Shown in pieces: positions 46,439 through 53,990 of a DNA stretch of 64,000 bases. The stretch covers positions 124,001 to 188,000 of the forward strand of contig JACRHL010000003.1 of assembly GCA_016212085.1 (NCBI GenBank), given 5' to 3'. The stretch's first letter is position 1; every line of letters starts with the position of its first letter. This DNA comes from Nitrospirota bacterium. GTDB lineage: Bacteria > Nitrospirota > JACRHL01. The notes below the pieces were generated by a model that was not told where the DNA came from, did no database searches, and was given only the letters and a program-made list of their open reading frames with translations. A program made the translations under genes and the position numbers.

Positions 46439-47023
46439 GTGCCGCACCCCATGCGCACCTATCGATCCACACTGGGCCCGCGCCCCCACGCCGTCGCCCA
46501 GGTGGAGCCGGACCCGAAGCGCGCCGCCAGGCTGGACAAGCTGATCCAGCGCTTCGTGCACCGGCCCACCGCCCTGCACGGCCGCGCGCCGGGGGCGGTG
46601 GACCTGATGGGCCTGCTCGGCGCCGTGCACGACATGTACGGCTGCCTCACCCGCCCCATGGTGGAGCACCTGGCCCACGTGTGCGAGCTGTACACCGGCC
46701 AGGTGTACGCCACCGCCAGCTTCTACCCGGACATCTACCTGGACCCCAAGGGCCGCCACCTCGTGAAGGTGTGCACCGGCACCGCCTGCCACGTGAAGGG
46801 GGCCGACCGGCTGGCGCGCCGCTGCGCCCGCGCCCTGGGGGTGGAACCGGGCGGGACGGACGCGGACGGCGAGTTCACCTTCCTCACCACCGCCTGCGTG
46901 GGGGCCTGCTCGCTGGCGCCGGTGCTGATGGTGGGCACCGACATCCACGGCAATCCGGACCCGGCCACCCTGCCCGATCTGTTCGCGCGCCACCGGGAGA
47001 GCGATGCAACGGCCGCCGGATAA
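46439..47023 (+). CDS. fdsG: NAD-dependent formate dehydrogenase gamma subunit (NuoE-like)
   Basis: This 194-residue thioredoxin-fold subunit carries one [2Fe-2S] cluster and passes electrons between the NADH site and the formate site. The cluster ligands are in CTGTACHVKG and CVGACSLAP, the C-x4-C and C-x3-C spacing of NuoE/HoxE/FdsG. A GTG start with AGGAG close upstream is chosen; an ATG four codons later is possible. It heads the fdsGBA-type operon and overlaps the next gene by 20 bases. A hydrogenase or complex I subunit is unlikely because formate dehydrogenase genes follow. Confidence 0.85.
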   Translation: MPHPMRTYRSTLGPRPHAVAQVEPDPKRAARLDKLIQRFVHRPTALHGRAPGAVDLMGLLGAVHDMYGCLTRPMVEHLAHVCELYTGQVYATASFYPDIYLDPKGRHLVKVCTGTACHVKGADRLARRCARALGVEPGGTDADGEFTFLTTACVGACSLAPVLMVGTDIHGNPDPATLPDLFARHRESDATAAG

Positions 47024-48650
47024 CTACCCGCGCATCTTCGTCGGCACCGGCTCGTGCGGGCTGGCGGCGGGGGCCGACGCGGTGTTCGAGGCCGCCAAGC
47101 GCTTCGTGCGCGGCGCCGGACAGGACATCCACCTGATCCGCACCGGCTGCCTGGGCATGTGCCACCGGGAACCGGTGGTGGAGGTGCTCATCCCCGGACG
47201 GCCACGGGTGATCTATGGCGACGTGACGGCGGACGGCGTGGCCGAACTGCTCGGCCGCCATTTCAGCCCGGTGGGGCCGGAAGCCGCGGGCCACACCGTG
47301 GGGCAGCGGACGGCGGACGCCGAGTCGCTCCCCTACCCGGACATCCTGCCCATCGCCCTGCACCCCTTCTTTGCCGGCCAGGCGCCGCTGCTGCTGGCCC
47401 GCTGCGGCGTGGTGGACCCCCACTCGCTGGTGGACTACGAGGCCAGCGGCGGCTACTCCGCCATCCGCCGCGCCCTCGGGATGCACCCCAAGGAGGTGAT
47501 CGCGCGGGTGCGCCGCTCGGGTCTGGCCGGCCGCGGCGGCGGCGGCATGCTCACCGGCGACAAGTGGGCCCTGGCCGCCGCCCAGCGCGACACGGAGCGC
47601 TACGTGATCGCCAACGGCGACGAGGGCGATCCGGGGGCGTTCTCGGACCGCACCCTCATGGAGGGCGACCCGCACGCCGTCATCGAGGGGCTCATGATCG
47701 CCGCCTACGCCACCGGCGCCCACCGGGGCTACATCTACACCCGCGCCGCCTACGCCACGGCGCTGCACCGGCTGGAGGTGGCCATCGCCTTCTGCCGCAA
47801 GCGCGGCTACCTGGGAGAGGGCATCTTCGGCACCGGCTACGACCTGAACCTGCACATCCGCAAGGGCTCCGGCGCCTACATCTGCGGCGAGGAGACGGCG
47901 CTCATCGCCACCCTGGAGGGGCGCGGCCCCATGCCCGAGGAAAAGCCGCCGCTGCCGGCGGTGAAAGGCTACCTGGGCCACCCCACGGTGGTGAACAACG
48001 TGGAAACCCTGGTGGCCGTGTCGCACATCGTGGGCACCGAGGACGACGCCCTGGCGGCGCTGGCCGCCAAGACCAAGCTGCTGTCCCTGTCCGGCGCCAT
48101 CGCGCGGCCGGGGGCGGTGGAGGTGCCCATGGGCACCTCGCTGCGCGAGGTGATCTTCGGCATCGGCGGCGGCGTGGCCGGTGACCGGCGTTTCAAGGCG
48201 GTGCTGGTGGGCGGGCCGGACGGCGGCTTCCTGCCCGAGCACCTGCTCGACACGCCGGTGTCGTTCGCGGCCTTGAGCCGCATCGGCTCCACCCTCGGCT
48301 CCGGCGCCCTGGTGGTGGTGGACGACAGCACCTGCATGGTGGCCCTGGCCCGCTACTTCGAGCAGTTCGAGGCGGACGCCAGTTGCGGCAAGTGCACCCC
48401 CTGCCGGGTGGGCACCGTGCGCCTGGTGGAGCGCCTCGACCGCATCATCGCCGGCCACGCCACGGCGGCGGAGCTGGATACCCTGCGCGACCTGTGCGGC
48501 GTGGTTCGGGAGGGCTCCCTGTGCGGCCTGGGCCGCGCCGCGCCCAACCCGGTGACCAGCGCGCTCAGGCACTTCGGCGACGACTTCAAGGCACACCTGG
48601 AGGGGTACTGCCCCACCGGCGCCTGCACCACGGGGGAGGACGCGCCATGA
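47004..48650 (+). CDS. fdsB: NAD-dependent formate dehydrogenase beta subunit (NuoF-like)
   Basis: This 548-residue flavoprotein binds FMN and NAD and reduces NAD with electrons from formate oxidation. An N-terminal thioredoxin-like domain (GTGSCGLAAGAD, TGCLGMCHREP) precedes the NuoF core: the FMN loop GRGGGGMLTGDKW, the NAD-binding GDEGDPGAFSDR and GSGAYICGEETALI. The N3-type [4Fe-4S] motif is SCGKCTPCRVGT with a later Cys. The start ATG follows GGGAGAG. Its stop overlaps the alpha-subunit ATG (ATGA). Confidence 0.9.
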   Translation: MQRPPDNYPRIFVGTGSCGLAAGADAVFEAAKRFVRGAGQDIHLIRTGCLGMCHREPVVEVLIPGRPRVIYGDVTADGVAELLGRHFSPVGPEAAGHTVGQRTADAESLPYPDILPIALHPFFAGQAPLLLARCGVVDPHSLVDYEASGGYSAIRRALGMHPKEVIARVRRSGLAGRGGGGMLTGDKWALAAAQRDTERYVIANGDEGDPGAFSDRTLMEGDPHAVIEGLMIAAYATGAHRGYIYTRAAYATALHRLEVAIAFCRKRGYLGEGIFGTGYDLNLHIRKGSGAYICGEETALIATLEGRGPMPEEKPPLPAVKGYLGHPTVVNNVETLVAVSHIVGTEDDALAALAAKTKLLSLSGAIARPGAVEVPMGTSLREVIFGIGGGVAGDRRFKAVLVGGPDGGFLPEHLLDTPVSFAALSRIGSTLGSGALVVVDDSTCMVALARYFEQFEADASCGKCTPCRVGTVRLVERLDRIIAGHATAAELDTLRDLCGVVREGSLCGLGRAAPNPVTSALRHFGDDFKAHLEGYCPTGACTTGEDAP

Positions 48651-51370
48651 CCGTCACCCTCTCCATCGACGGCGTCAGCGTGCGGGTGCCCGCCGGCAGC
48701 ACGCTGCTCGCCGCCGCGCGGGCGGCGGGCCGCCACGTGCCCACCCTGTGCCACGACCCCAAGACGAAACCGTTCGGCGGCTGCCGCGCCTGCCTGGTGC
48801 GGGTGGAGGGGGAAGCCCGCCCGGTGGCCGCCTGCACCCGTCCGGTGGCGGGCGGCATGGTGGTCCGCACGGACGATGCGGCGGTGCGGGCGCTGGTGAC
48901 GGGCATCGTCCAGCTCCAGCTCTCCGACCACCCGGAACATTGCACCGCCTGCGCCGCCTCCGGCCACACCGAGTTGCACGACCTGGCGGCCGCCCTGGGC
49001 ATCGGCGCCGACAACCCCTTTGCCGGGCGCCGCCGGGAGCAGCCCACGGAGGACACCAACCCCTTCATCATCCGCGACTTTTCCGCCTGCATCGCCTGCG
49101 GCAAGTGCATCCGCATCTGCGACGAGGTGCGCGGCGTGATGGCCATCAACTGGCAGGGGCGCGGCTTCGGCCTGAAGGTGGCCGCCCCGTTCGACGACGT
49201 GCTCGACTGCGAGTTCTGCGGCCACTGCGTGGACATCTGCCCCACCGGCGCCCTGCGCGAGAAGCTGGCGGAGGGGCTGCCCGCCCCGGACCGCGCGGTG
49301 AAGACCATCTGCGGCTATTGCGGCGTGGGCTGCGGCATGCTGGTGCAGGTCGCCGGCAACCGGGTGGTGCGCGTCACCGCCGAGCACGGCAACCCGTCCA
49401 ACGACGGCGCCCTGTGCGTGAAGGGTAAGTTCGGCTACGACTTTGGCGACCACCCGGACCGCCTGGGCGGCACCGGCCTGAAGCTGGGGGCGACCACGGG
49501 CGAGCGGGTGGCCGCGCCGCTGGTGAGGGACGGCGACGGCTTCCGCCCCGTGAGCTGGGACGAGGCCCTGGACCGGGTGGCCCAGGGGCTGCTGGGCATC
49601 AAGCGCGCCCACGGCCCGCGCGCCCTGGCCGGCTTCCCCTCCGCCAAGTGCACCAACGAGGAGAACTACCTGTTCCAGAAGCTGCTGCGCGCGGGGCTGG
49701 AAACCAACCACATCGACCACTGCACGCGCCTGTGCCACGCCGCCTCCACCAAGGGCCTGCAAATGGCCTTCGGCACCGGCGCCATGACCAACGCCACCGA
49801 CGACTTTGCCCTGGCGGACGTGGTCTTCGCCGTGGGCACCAACACCATCGAGAACCACCCGGTGTCGGCCCTCAAGCTCAAGGAGGCCATCCGCAAGGGC
49901 ACCAGACTCATCGTCGCCGACCCCCGGCGCATCGAGATGGTGGAGTGGGCGGACATCTGGCTCGACCTGCAACCGGGCACCAACGCCGCCCTGCTCCTGG
50001 GCATGCTGCACGTGATCCTGGCGGAGGGGCTGGCGGACCAGGCCTTCATCGCGGCGCGCACCGAGGGCTTTGACGACGCGGCACGGGCGGCGGCGCGCTA
50101 CACCCCCGAGTTCGCGGCGCGGATCACCGGCGTGGACCCGCAAAAGATCATCGACGCCGCCCGCCTTTACGGCCGCGCCGGCAACGCGGCCATCTACAAC
50201 GGCATGGGCATCACCCAGCACACCTCCGGCACCGACAACATGCTGTGCCTCACCAACCTGGCCCTGGCCACGGGCAACGTGGGGCGCCCCGGCACCGGCG
50301 TGAACCCCCTGAGGGGCCAGAACAACGTGCAGGGCTCGTGCGACATGGCCGGCGTGCCCGCCGAGCTGCCCGGCTACCAGCCCATCCTCGACCCGGCGGT
50401 GCGCGCCAAGTTCACGGGGGTGTGGCACGCGGGCATCCCGGACTGGATCGGCAAGACCCTCACCGAGATCACCGACGCGGCCCTGGCCGGGGAGATCAAG
50501 GGGCTGTACGTGCTGGGCGAGAACCCGGTGCTGTCGGACCCGGACGTGACCAAGACCACCGCCGCCCTGGGGAACCTGGATTTCCTGGTGGTGCAGGACA
50601 TCTTCCTCACCGAGACGGCCAAACTCGCCCACGTGGTGCTGCCCGGCACCACCTTTCTGGAGAAGGACGGCACCTTCACCAACACCGACCGCCGGGTGCA
50701 GCGGGTGCGGGCGGCGCTGGCGCCGCCGGAAGGGGCCCTGCGCGACCTGGACATCATCCAGGCGGTGGCGCGCCGCGTCGGCCTGCCCATGGACTATGAC
50801 GGCCCGGAGGCGGTGTGGAACGAGATCCGCCAGGTGTGGCCCGACGTGGCCGGCATCGGCTACCGCCGGCTGGAGGAGGGTGGCATCCAGTGGCCGTGCC
50901 CGGCGGAGGACCACCCGGGCACCCCGTTCCTGTACGCGGACACCTTCCCCATCGGCCGGGGCCGCTTCCACCCGGTGGAATTCATCCCGCCCAGGGAGCT
51001 ACCGGACACGGACTACCCGTACATGCTCACCACCGGGCGCTGGCTGCTGCACTACCACACGGGCAGCATGACGCGCCGCTCCAGGGGCATCGGCGAGGCC
51101 CTGCCGGAGGGGTTCGTGGAGATCCACCCGGACGACGCGGCGGCCCTCGGCCTGGCCCCGGACCAGCCGGTGACGGTGCGCTCCCGGCGCGGTACAATCA
51201 CGGTGCGGGCCCTCATCTCGCCCCGCTCCCGGCCGGGGGTGGTGTTCATCCCGTTCCATTTCGCCGAGGCTGCCGCCAACGCCCTCACCAACACGGCGCT
51301 GGATGAAAAGTGCAAGATCCCGGAGTTGAAGGTGTGCGCGGTGCACATCGCACCCGCCCCCGAACCTTGA
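48647..51370 (+). CDS. fdsA: NAD-dependent formate dehydrogenase catalytic alpha subunit
   Basis: This 907-residue molybdenum or tungsten enzyme oxidises formate to CO2. In order it has an N-terminal [2Fe-2S] domain (CHDPKTKPFGGCRAC), a His-Cys cluster region (HPEHCTAC), and two ferredoxin-type clusters (CIACGKCIRIC, CEFCGHCVDICP). A proximal [4Fe-4S] (CGYCGVGC) and the bis-pterin catalytic domain follow. The metal ligand is Cys363 in HCTRLCHAAS, so it does not use selenocysteine. The third cysteine expected in the His-Cys cluster is replaced (Thr108 at that place, His107 beside it). No fdhD or cofactor gene is adjacent. Confidence 0.93.
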   Translation: MTVTLSIDGVSVRVPAGSTLLAAARAAGRHVPTLCHDPKTKPFGGCRACLVRVEGEARPVAACTRPVAGGMVVRTDDAAVRALVTGIVQLQLSDHPEHCTACAASGHTELHDLAAALGIGADNPFAGRRREQPTEDTNPFIIRDFSACIACGKCIRICDEVRGVMAINWQGRGFGLKVAAPFDDVLDCEFCGHCVDICPTGALREKLAEGLPAPDRAVKTICGYCGVGCGMLVQVAGNRVVRVTAEHGNPSNDGALCVKGKFGYDFGDHPDRLGGTGLKLGATTGERVAAPLVRDGDGFRPVSWDEALDRVAQGLLGIKRAHGPRALAGFPSAKCTNEENYLFQKLLRAGLETNHIDHCTRLCHAASTKGLQMAFGTGAMTNATDDFALADVVFAVGTNTIENHPVSALKLKEAIRKGTRLIVADPRRIEMVEWADIWLDLQPGTNAALLLGMLHVILAEGLADQAFIAARTEGFDDAARAAARYTPEFAARITGVDPQKIIDAARLYGRAGNAAIYNGMGITQHTSGTDNMLCLTNLALATGNVGRPGTGVNPLRGQNNVQGSCDMAGVPAELPGYQPILDPAVRAKFTGVWHAGIPDWIGKTLTEITDAALAGEIKGLYVLGENPVLSDPDVTKTTAALGNLDFLVVQDIFLTETAKLAHVVLPGTTFLEKDGTFTNTDRRVQRVRAALAPPEGALRDLDIIQAVARRVGLPMDYDGPEAVWNEIRQVWPDVAGIGYRRLEEGGIQWPCPAEDHPGTPFLYADTFPIGRGRFHPVEFIPPRELPDTDYPYMLTTGRWLLHYHTGSMTRRSRGIGEALPEGFVEIHPDDAAALGLAPDQPVTVRSRRGTITVRALISPRSRPGVVFIPFHFAEAAANALTNTALDEKCKIPELKVCAVHIAPAPEP

Positions 51371-51380
51371 AGACGAGAGC

Positions 51381-52526
51381 ATGAAGGACATCCTGATCTA
51401 CACCACCGCCGCCTGCCCTTACTGCATCGTGGCCAAGCGCGCCCTGGACAACGCGCGCATCCCGTACCGCGAGATCGACATCACCCGCACCCCCCTCGTG
51501 CGCGACGAGCTGCACGCCAAAACCGGCGAGCGCACCGTGCCCCAGGTGTTCGTGGACGGTGTCTACATCGGCCAGGACGACGAGCTGGTGGCCATGGTGC
51601 AATCCGGCGAGTTGACGGCCAAGGGCGCCGATGCACCCGCCGATGCACCCGCCGATGCACCCGCCGATGCGGACGACGGGGACGACGTCTACGACGTGGC
51701 CATCGTGGGCGGCGGGCGCGGCGGGCTGACCCTGGCGCGCCACCTGCCCCCATCGCTCAAGGTGGTGGTGCTGGACCGCATGCCCCACGTGGACGGCCTG
51801 CGCCCGGCGCGCGACACCCTGCGCCAGGCGGTGCTGGCGCGGGGGGTGACGTTCGTGGAGCGCGAGGTGTTCGGCGTGGAGCCGGGGGGGGTGCAAACCC
51901 TGGTCACCCTCGACGGCCCGCTCACGGCGCGCGCGGTGGTGATCGCCACCGGCGCCCGCGGGCGCCGGCCCGACATCGCCGGCGAGGCGGCCCTGGCGGG
52001 CAAGGGGGTGAGCTATTGCGCCGAGTGCGACGGCGCCTTCTTTTCCGGCATGGCGGTGGCGGTGGCGGGGGTGGACGAACGCGCCTGCAAGACCGCCCTG
52101 CTGCTGGCGGACCAGGTCCGGCACGTGCACCTGCTGTGCCCGGAGGTGTCGCTGTTCGCCGCGCCGGCAACCCTTGCAAGGCTGGCCGCGCGCGGCAACG
52201 TGACCGTCCGCACCGGTGCGCGGGTGACCGCCATCCACGGCGCTTCGCAGGTGACCGGCATCGCCGTCGCCGACGGGCAGGGGGGCGAGGAGCTGGCGGT
52301 GGGGGGGGTGTTCCTGTACCTGTACGGCCGGCGCCCGGACACGGAATTCCTCAAGGGCCTGGTGGCGTGCCGGAACGACGGCGCCGTGGCGGTGTCCGGC
52401 CCCGGCCGCACCTCCCGCGAGGGGATCTACGCCGTGGGGCCGGTGGCCGCCGAGGTGGGCGGCGCCCCGCCCTATGGCGCCCTGGCCGAGAGCATCACCC
52501 GGCGGCTTGCGGCGCGGCCCGCCTGA
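51381..52526 (+). CDS. Glutaredoxin - thioredoxin reductase-like fusion
   Basis: This 381-residue protein joins two redox modules. Residues 1-82 are a glutaredoxin with active site CPYC (12-15) and TVPQVFVDG. Residues 83-103 are an Ala-Asp-Pro linker. Residues 104-381 resemble the thioredoxin reductase flavoprotein: FAD motif VAIVGGGRGG, redox pair CAEC (213-216), and C-terminal FAD-contacting IYAVGPVA. The usual NADPH motifs are degenerate: GGGDSA reads AGVDERA and the HRR loop is absent. It follows the formate dehydrogenase alpha gene by ten bases, so it is probably co-transcribed. Electron donor and target are unknown. Confidence 0.82.
   Translation: MKDILIYTTAACPYCIVAKRALDNARIPYREIDITRTPLVRDELHAKTGERTVPQVFVDGVYIGQDDELVAMVQSGELTAKGADAPADAPADAPADADDGDDVYDVAIVGGGRGGLTLARHLPPSLKVVVLDRMPHVDGLRPARDTLRQAVLARGVTFVEREVFGVEPGGVQTLVTLDGPLTARAVVIATGARGRRPDIAGEAALAGKGVSYCAECDGAFFSGMAVAVAGVDERACKTALLLADQVRHVHLLCPEVSLFAAPATLARLAARGNVTVRTGARVTAIHGASQVTGIAVADGQGGEELAVGGVFLYLYGRRPDTEFLKGLVACRNDGAVAVSGPGRTSREGIYAVGPVAAEVGGAPPYGALAESITRRLAARPA
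51627..51671 (+). repeat. 12-bp coding repeat in the fusion linker
   Basis: GCCGATGCACCC is repeated three times in tandem with a fourth partial copy, encoding Ala-Asp-Ala-Pro units in the linker between the glutaredoxin and flavoprotein domains. The unit length keeps the frame, so linker length could vary. Confidence 0.85.
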
Positions 52527-52549: not shown

Positions 52550-53323
52550 CTAACGCACCTTCAACATCGCCATCAGCGGCTCGAACAGCGCGCCGTTGCT
52601 GGAAACAACCCCCTTCACCAGCGGGTTCGGCTGGTTGAATTTTTGCGGGTGGCCGCCCAGCACCTGGATGCGCCCGCCCGCCTCCTCGATGAGCAGGGCG
52701 CCGGCGGCAAAGTCCCACTCGGTCTTGGGGGTGAGGGTGAAGGTGAGGTCCGCCTGGCCACCGGCCACCAGCGCCAGCTTGTAGGCGATGCTGCCGATGG
52801 GGGTGATGGTGTAGGCGTCCACGAACTGGTCGAACTCGCCGCGCTTCACCTCGGAGCGGCTGGCCAGGATGTTGGCGGTTTTCAGGTCGGTGAGGGGGGT
52901 GACGAAGATGGGGACGCCGTTGAGGGTGGCACCCTTGCCGCGCTCGGCGGAGAACAGCTCGTTCCTGGCCGGGTTGTACACCACGCCCACGGCGATGTCG
53001 CCATCCACCGCCAGGGCGATGGAGATGGCGAACTGGGGGATGCCCTGGATGAACTCCTTGGTGCCGTCGATGGGGTCCACGATCCACACCCGGCGCTTGC
53101 TCAGGCGTTCCGTCGAGTCCACCGTCTCCTCCGACAGCCAGCCGTCGTCCGGCCGGGCGCCGAGCAGGATGCCCTTGAGCACCTTGTCGGCCTCCAGGTC
53201 GGCGGTGGTGACCGGGTTGCCCTCGCCCTTGTGCCGGATCTCGTACTCGTCCCGGAAATACGACATGACCACGGTACCGGCCTGGCGCGCCGCGTCTTGG
53301 GCCAACTGTAGATCCGGGTTCAT
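52550..53323 (-). CDS. cysQ: 3'(2'),5'-bisphosphate nucleotidase
   Basis: CysQ removes the 3'-phosphate of PAP, a by-product of sulfate assimilation. The 257-residue product is in the lithium-sensitive inositol monophosphatase superfamily with the metal-binding motifs WLSEETVDS, VDPIDGTKEFI and EWDFAAGALLIEEAGG. The ATG at 53323 follows AAGGA and upstream in-frame sequence overlaps the neighbouring gene. It may be co-transcribed with the MarR-type gene 36 bases upstream. Confidence 0.93.
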   Translation of the reverse strand: MNPDLQLAQDAARQAGTVVMSYFRDEYEIRHKGEGNPVTTADLEADKVLKGILLGARPDDGWLSEETVDSTERLSKRRVWIVDPIDGTKEFIQGIPQFAISIALAVDGDIAVGVVYNPARNELFSAERGKGATLNGVPIFVTPLTDLKTANILASRSEVKRGEFDQFVDAYTITPIGSIAYKLALVAGGQADLTFTLTPKTEWDFAAGALLIEEAGGRIQVLGGHPQKFNQPNPLVKGVVSSNGALFEPLMAMLKVR

Positions 53324-53360
53324 GCCTGTCCTTTCGGGGTGGGCGCCACACACGGCGGAA

Positions 53361-53990
53361 TCATTGTACCGGCACCTGCGGCCGCCCCGCATCCAATAAC
53401 AGCCGGGCCAGATCGTCGATGCGCTCCGGCACATGGCCGCGGGCATCGAGGGCCGCGCGCCAGCGGGCGTCGTCTCCCTCCACGGCAAACAGCACCCGGT
53501 CCACGGCGGCGGGGTCGATCTCGTCCAACGGCCGCACCGGATGCCCCAGAAAGAGCTGCCCGTCCCCGACCACCGCCACCAGTTGCAGGCCCAGCTCGTG
53601 CAAGGTGAGGAACGCCGCCTCGGCCAACGGCCCCTCCCCCACCAGCAGCACCCGCTTCACCCCCTGCCCGCGCAACGCGGCCAGGTGGTGCAGGAACACG
53701 CCACGGGCATTGCGGTACATGGCGAAGGAGTCGGTCAGATAGCGCGCGCTCAGCCGCCCCTTTTCGGCCATGCCGACGGGGGTGAGCAGGTAGACCACGC
53801 GCCGCGCGGAGAGGCGCCGGACCTTGACCAGCTCCTGGCGCATCAGCCGCTTGAGGGACAGGTTGACCAGCCCCAGGGCGATGTCGAGCCGCCGCGACAG
53901 CTCGCGCTGGGTCAACATGCCGTTCTGGTGGATGAGTTCCAGGAGTCGGAAGGTGCGGCCCGCGTCCTGGTCGTTTACCGGTTCGTTCAC
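53361..53990 (-). CDS. MarR-type (EPS-associated) regulator with Rossmann domain
   Basis: The N-terminal 85 residues form a winged helix similar to the EPS-associated MarR family: LTQRELSRRLDIALGLVNLSLKRL followed by a wing VYLLTPVGMAEKGRLSARYL, quoted in parts. Residues about 108-195 form a nucleotide-binding-like fold starting VKRVLLVGEGPLAEAAFLTL, reminiscent of the NAD-sensing part of Rex-type regulators. It may sense a nucleotide or sugar-nucleotide and control envelope or polysaccharide genes. A GTG start lies only about eight bases after a predicted -10 box, so the mRNA may be leaderless. Confidence 0.7.
   Translation of the reverse strand: MNEPVNDQDAGRTFRLLELIHQNGMLTQRELSRRLDIALGLVNLSLKRLMRQELVKVRRLSARRVVYLLTPVGMAEKGRLSARYLTDSFAMYRNARGVFLHHLAALRGQGVKRVLLVGEGPLAEAAFLTLHELGLQLVAVVGDGQLFLGHPVRPLDEIDPAAVDRVLFAVEGDDARWRAALDARGHVPERIDDLARLLLDAGRPQVPVQ

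Follow-up and report, generated by a model that had tools for sequence, protein, structure and literature searches.

A glutaredoxin–thioredoxin reductase fusion behind formate dehydrogenase genes in one Nitrospirota class: a possible thiol relay

Results

The fusion gene lies directly behind a formate dehydrogenase operon

The window analyzed here, a 64,000-nucleotide stretch of a 2.7-Mb Nitrospirota genome (G000), carries a set of formate dehydrogenase genes on its forward strand. These comprise an fdsG-like gene for an NADH-dehydrogenase-type [2Fe-2S] subunit (46439..47023, start codon unsure), an fdsB-like gene for an NADH-dehydrogenase-type FMN subunit (47004..48650), and an fdsA-like gene for a Mo/W-bisPGD formate dehydrogenase with an N-terminal NuoG-type Fe-S domain (48647..51370). 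The first product matched two NCBIfam families below their equivalog cut-offs, NuoE at 115 bits and formate dehydrogenase gamma at 89 bits, and the second matched NCBIfam NuoF (417 bits). With an alpha subunit above the TIGR01591 cut-off (796.6 bits, cut-off 666) and NuoE- and NuoF-like partners, the enzyme classifies as an NAD-dependent Mo/W formate dehydrogenase (FdsGBA). The next forward-strand frame follows fdsA at the ten-base distance given in the initial annotation (fdsA stop 51370, ORF start 51381). It runs uninterrupted from an ATG at 51381 to a stop codon at 52524-52526 (51381..52526) and encodes a protein of 381 aa. A CysQ/inositol-monophosphatase-like gene on the reverse strand (52550..53488) is the conserved convergent downstream neighbor.

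The encoded protein does combine, as first described, a CPYC glutaredoxin and a CAEC reductase-like half in a single chain, since one open frame holds both Pfam domains and both dithiols (residues 12-15 and 213-216). The Glutaredoxin match (PF00462; 69.7 bits, cut-off 22.9) spans residues 4-63, and the Pyr_redox_2 match (85.8 bits, cut-off 26.1) spans residues 104-356. The glutaredoxin (Grx) domain (aa 1-80, 51381..51620, forward strand) has the features of the Grx fold, namely the dithiol CPYC and a TVP loop (aa 52-54). It is joined to the thioredoxin reductase-like (TR) half by an Ala/Pro/Asp-rich linker with DAPA repeats (51621..51683, forward strand), which is predicted to be disordered (pLDDT <50 at aa 81-100) and is only 11 to 33% identical among the three complete orthologues. 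Within it, the DNA at 51635-51672 consists of copies of the 12-bp unit gatgcacccgcc, encoding DAPA, and its length varies among orthologues.

The fusion is confined to one family among the Nitrospirota surveyed

The host class is represented here by four genomes (G000, G001, G002, and G003), all of one family, and an orthologue was found in 4/4. Orthologues at 48 to 54% identity in three other genera of the host family rule out a chance ORF, a frameshift, or an assembly chimera. Two of them show the same fusion at the same position behind fdsA; the G001 orthologue begins at a contig end within the linker, which places its Grx part outside the sequence. Among the other ~392 of 396 Nitrospirota genomes surveyed, no match with Grx joined to TR was found outside the host family, and the best matches were standalone TRs of ~310 to 330 aa at 34 to 41% identity. 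Fusions in other phyla are under-sampled, the search there consisting of one contig scan with the window protein as the sole query; a Prevotella plasmid match was rejected as an AhpF-type protein.

The survey also returned two observations on the separate domains. A TR match at E 1e-25 occurred in ~150 of the 396 genomes, and 21/21 of those inspected closely (L033-L057 and other loci) resembled ferredoxin-dependent flavin thioredoxin reductases (FFTRs). FFTR-type reductases are thus common in Nitrospirota, extending their range beyond the cyanobacteria and Clostridia described in the papers cited here. The closest standalone match to the fused Grx domain, at 61% identity, was a Grx of another genome (G298, L058 3736-4029) that adjoins NUDIX-like and pyrE-like genes (by eye), not fds.

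FFTRs are the favored kin of the reductase half

The best PDB sequence match of the whole chain was the Gloeobacter protein 5j60/6xtf (E 1.4e-32), an FFTR that receives electrons from a [2Fe-2S] ferredoxin and whose W315 stacks on the flavin (PMC12796991). FFTRs are NADPH-independent (PMC9025218, PMC12796991). When one standalone Nitrospirota TR was compared with the PDB, it matched the Gloeobacter FFTR at 260 bits, ~50 bits above the next chain. The standalone Nitrospirota TRs have neither GGGxxA nor HRR, and a Trp near the C-terminus was present in 21/21 compared. The best tree placed the fused proteins on the FFTR side of the split from NADPH reductases (100/97), where their stem measures 1.7 changes per site, but the AU test did not reject their grouping with NADPH reductases (p 0.28). 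An FFTR-type, low-Mr thioredoxin reductase is the favored ancestor of the reductase half.

Motifs for NADPH and for the flavin ring are missing, and those for thiol chemistry are kept

Motifs were counted in the fused family (n = 4), in an FFTR set (n = 22; 21 Nitrospirota proteins and Gloeobacter), and in an NADPH-type (NTR) set (n = 17). GxGxxG and ATG were universal (each 4/4 fused, 22/22 FFTR, and 17/17 NADPH-type), the former retained in the window protein as GGGRGG (aa 110-115), within the initial piece of what was once the FAD domain (51684..51968, forward strand). An acidic residue also ends strand 2 (L[DE]R in 4/4 orthologues by eye, the automatic test having missed three). The N[YFW]xG flavin loop, present in 22/22 FFTRs and 17/17 NADPH-type reductases, was found in 0/4 fused proteins. 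At the corresponding site (51795..51812, forward strand) the GAL...ENYPG... segment of FFTRs is missing, leaving an alignment gap of ~18 aa (18 columns); the deletion is larger in G002, whose structure model also lacks the following helix. GxFxxGD was likewise found in 0/4 fused proteins, against 21/22 FFTRs and 16/17 NADPH-type reductases; its GD binds the FAD ribityl (PMC2936869, PMC5627308), and G353-P354 takes its place in the window protein (52437..52442, forward strand; GP/GT/GS/GP across the four orthologues). The RQ after GD (0/4 fused, 22/22 FFTR, 13/17 NADPH-type) and the C-terminal Trp (0/4 fused; 21/22 FFTR, the Gloeobacter row being a fragment that ends before the tail; 1/17 NADPH-type) were absent as well.

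The motifs that serve thiol exchange showed the opposite pattern. G[RK]G was present in 4/4 fused proteins, 22/22 FFTRs, and 8/17 NADPH-type reductases, CxxC in 4/4 fused orthologues, and FF or FY after CxxC in 4/4, 22/22, and 17/17, respectively. In the window protein these are GKG (aa 207-209), CAEC (aa 213-216, nt 52017-52028), and FF (aa 220-221), together at 51999..52043 on the forward strand and retained in 4/4 orthologues. GKG and FF are thioredoxin-docking motifs, and the roles of CxxC have been described along with them (PMC5627308, PMC9025218).

The initial annotation had read the pyridine-nucleotide site as AGVDERA in place of GGGDSA, with the HRR loop gone, and the wider comparison agrees. 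Both GGGxxA and HRR were absent from 4/4 orthologues and 0/22 FFTRs carried either (each 10/17 in the NADPH-type set); the HRR position aligns with LLCPE. New invariant residues stand at these sites in the four orthologues, D232-E233-R234 within AGVDERA (52065..52085, forward strand) and Cys253 at the position of the HRR histidine (52137..52139, forward strand), where most FFTRs have Ser. Judged by motifs, then, the fused family has lost the signs of both the NADPH site and the flavin-ring pocket; the degradation extends to the signatures of the flavin site, besides the NADPH motifs noticed earlier.

Conservation is inverted relative to FFTRs

Pairwise identity among FFTRs is 63 to 68% and 54 to 68% for the two pieces of the FAD domain and 44 to 55% for the CxxC domain. 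The corresponding values in the fused family are 40 to 56% and 26 to 49% for the FAD-domain pieces and 40 to 55% for the CxxC domain, and the Grx domain is 78 to 84% identical among three orthologues. This inverted order fits flavin binding that is no longer under selection. GC3 is 0.93 to 0.98 in every segment of the frame, and nearly all comparisons show stronger conservation at codon positions 1 and 2 than at position 3, most weakly in the last segment, which indicates that coding constraint still acts on the TR half. Together with the missing flavin motifs, the inversion makes it doubtful, at the level of sequence, that the fusion is a working flavoprotein.

AlphaFold2 models, which were ligand-free and included no cofactor, were similar for the window protein (pLDDT 80, pTM 0.54) and the G002 orthologue (pLDDT 80, pTM 0.57). 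Both retained a Grx fold and a Rossmann-like start, and the CxxC domain was modeled with confidence; confidence was low in the linker and at the deletion junction. Foldseek searches with both models returned AhpF first (4o5q, 4xvg, 1hyu) and then the Gloeobacter FFTR.

Thiol systems of the host family

A canonical NADPH thioredoxin reductase is encoded in 4/4 family genomes, and hence the fusion is not the sole reductase of these cells. No other Grx was found in G000 at E 1e-3. The Glu-Cys ligase families PF04262 and PF04107 were not found in 4/4 genomes, in searches that detected the controls, and the GSH-synthetase-like matches of G000 and G003 look RimK-like by sequence; for PF08886 the controls themselves gave no signal, and the apparent lack of glutathione synthesis reaches no further than these families. 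A glutathione-fed Grx was rejected on these grounds, and a glutathione-independent reduction of the fused Grx is likely needed. A normal gene for the sulfurtransferase FdhD is present elsewhere in 4/4 genomes, and the fusion as a replacement for FdhD was rejected accordingly.

Linkage to a Cys-type formate dehydrogenase

The order fdsG-fdsB-fdsA-GrxTR recurs in G000, G003, and G002, with gaps behind fdsA of 10, ~12, and ~43 bp, respectively. Linkage was testable in three of the four family genomes, the G001 locus being split between contigs. The linkage to formate dehydrogenase genes first noted for this gene recurs within the family (3/3 testable genomes) and stops there: a Grx or TR neighbor was found at 0/33 other Nitrospirota fds loci, in the sequence examined (26 Sec-type loci with 1.5-kb flanks, less at contig ends, and 7 mostly Cys-type loci read over 9 to 15 kb). 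Gene order farther downstream is largely conserved too, and the linkage is thus partly plain synteny of close relatives. In G002 only, an Abi_2-like gene (by eye; L031 6514-7521) lies between Grx-TR and cysQ.

FdsA (48647-51370) has Cys363 at a position that most Nitrospirota relatives encode by an in-frame TGA (Sec, DHCARL*HSA). SelB scored above its cut-off in G023 and G039 but in none of the four family genomes, so that this lineage appears to have replaced Sec by Cys and given up Sec decoding. Two further cysteines, Cys534 and Cys565, occur in 4/4 family members and are replaced by Ser, Ala, or Thr in 12/12 and 11/12 relatives compared; both are candidate thiol targets.

Discussion

With its flavin site degraded along with the NADPH site, the fusion is more likely to act as a thiol carrier than as a reductase fed by another donor. 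From the pattern of retained and missing motifs, electrons probably move between thiols in the fusion protein and do not come from NADPH. We propose, tentatively, that the reductase-like half is a dithiol-disulfide relay that feeds the fused Grx and whose most plausible client is the Cys-type formate dehydrogenase. Thioredoxin, kept reduced by the cell's ordinary NADPH thioredoxin reductase, would dock at GKG/FF and reduce CAEC. CAEC would in turn reduce the tethered CPYC glutaredoxin, which would act on protein disulfides, most plausibly in the formate dehydrogenase of the same operon. Such a relay would let Grx work where no glutathione-synthesis gene was detected. In its fullest form, a thioredoxin reductase fold devoid of pyridine-nucleotide or flavin function that acts as a cofactor-free dithiol relay and replaces glutathione for a tethered Grx, in the service of the Cys-type enzyme and in one Nitrospirota class, the proposal is held with greater reserve.

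Several lines of evidence speak for the relay. In 4/4 proteins the flavin loop, GD, RQ, Trp, GGGxxA, and HRR are absent, and GxGxxG, ATG, G[KR]G, CxxC, and FF are present; the inversion of conservation, in a TR half on which coding constraint still acts, points the same way. So do the canonical thioredoxin reductase in 4/4 genomes, the lack of a second Grx in G000 and of the Glu-Cys ligase families searched, and the fdsGBA-GrxTR order with short gaps in G000, G002, and G003. Against the relay, a carrier reduced by thioredoxin has no need of a 280-residue domain. We infer the loss of flavin, the electron flow, and the target. The first is read from missing motifs rather than from binding, with cofactor-free AlphaFold models of low confidence at the loop; formate dehydrogenase is possibly the target, on the basis of operon linkage in one family of four genomes.

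The main rival, in our view less likely, holds that the fusion is still a flavoenzyme, binding FAD through GxGxxG and ATG and passing electrons from ferredoxin or the [2Fe-2S] centers of FdsG/FdsB through FAD and CAEC to Grx. It draws on the [2Fe-2S] ferredoxin-fed Gloeobacter FFTR as the best PDB sequence relative, on the conserved position behind fdsA, and on the retained ADP-binding half of the FAD site; with GxGxxG, the strand-2 acidic residue, and ATG in place, the protein could still bind FAD through its ADP portion or in a different pose. Nevertheless, 4/4 have lost the N[YF]PG loop, GD, RQ, and Trp, which the compared Nitrospirota FFTRs keep; the FAD-domain pieces do not exceed the CxxC domain in conservation, contrary to what FFTRs show; and G002 is also without the helix after the loop. 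The initial annotation had regarded the protein as a flavoprotein with another donor. That part of it which concerns NADPH stands, as the site is lost and the nearest kin, FFTRs, are NADPH-independent; an ordinary flavoprotein is hard to reconcile with the four missing flavin features. Nor is its suggestion of electrons arriving directly from ferredoxin or formate dehydrogenase favored, given features absent in 4/4 and present in 21 to 22 of 22 FFTRs.

Somewhat less probable again is that only the Grx matters, the reductase half being a slowly decaying remnant that persists as a folded tail or dimerization scaffold and whose CAEC has no redox role. The gulf in identity between Grx (78 to 84%) and the three TR segments (26 to 56%) would suit such decay, as would the larger deletion already seen in one organism (G002), yet CAEC, GKG, and FF persist in 4/4, DER and Cys253 have arisen as new invariant residues, and four genera keep the frame open and under constraint.

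A role as a maturation or activation factor of formate dehydrogenase, as opposed to general thiol repair, seems improbable; here the thiols would move sulfur or reduce a disulfide or persulfide while the Mo cofactor is inserted or sulfurated. Operon position, the Cys363-for-Sec exchange, and the conservation of Cys534 and Cys565 (4/4, mostly absent in relatives) agree with it, but each of the 4/4 genomes has its normal FdhD gene elsewhere, and no Grx/TR neighbor accompanies the other FdsGBA operons examined in the phylum, whether Cys- or Sec-type. That the protein is simply an NADPH-dependent reductase of thioredoxin or glutaredoxin whose motifs have diverged is, in our view, very unlikely: Ilyobacter does have a canonical Grx-TrxR fusion, complete in its NADPH and FAD motifs, and the AU test leaves room for grouping with NADPH reductases, but GGGxxA and HRR are absent in 4/4 and each genome has a separate canonical NADPH thioredoxin reductase.

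If the relay is real, a reductase would have turned into a thiol carrier, its flavin pocket gone and its dithiol and docking surface kept in a conserved family, and it would offer a way of running glutaredoxin without glutathione.

Comparison with known systems

Thioredoxin reductase relatives with a changed electron donor (ferredoxin, F420, or a second flavin), as described in the papers cited here, remain flavoproteins. The fusion resembles FFTRs in having no GGGxxA or HRR, in retaining G[RK]G, CxxC, and FF, and in a one-residue-longer xYLxGxxP segment common to both, compared with xI-GxxP; it differs in its N-terminal Grx and in the absence of the N[YF]PG loop, GD, RQ, and C-terminal Trp. 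With AhpF, whose structures were the top Foldseek matches, it shares an N-terminal thioredoxin-fold dithiol module joined to a thioredoxin reductase-like module. However, it has one Grx domain in place of the AhpF N-terminal domain, is without the NADPH and flavin-pocket motifs, and scored 123.7 bits against the cut-off of 502.9 for the AhpF equivalog TIGR03140.

The architecture itself is not new. Ilyobacter polytropus trxB (WP_013388892.1, plasmid pILYOP01) has the same domain order, with a CPYC Grx before a low-Mr thioredoxin reductase-like half. It retains intact ENFPG, GGGDTA, HRRD, and GD, lies in another operon, and represents a separate fusion with an NADPH-type reductase. This gene (L120 2995-4200) is a natural control for the Grx-TrxR architecture. 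The Desulfovibrio NAD(P)H-independent TR (DvTRi) has likewise lost the NADPH motifs and retained CxxC and thioredoxin docking, but it binds FAD via GxGxxG, ATG, and GxFAAGD (PMC5627308), the last of which is missing from the fusion. The diflavin-linked disulfide oxidoreductase (DDOR) is also a thioredoxin reductase relative with CxxC and no NADPH site; it has two flavins and no GR/KG or FF thioredoxin motifs (PMC9025218), whereas both motifs are present in 4/4 fusions.
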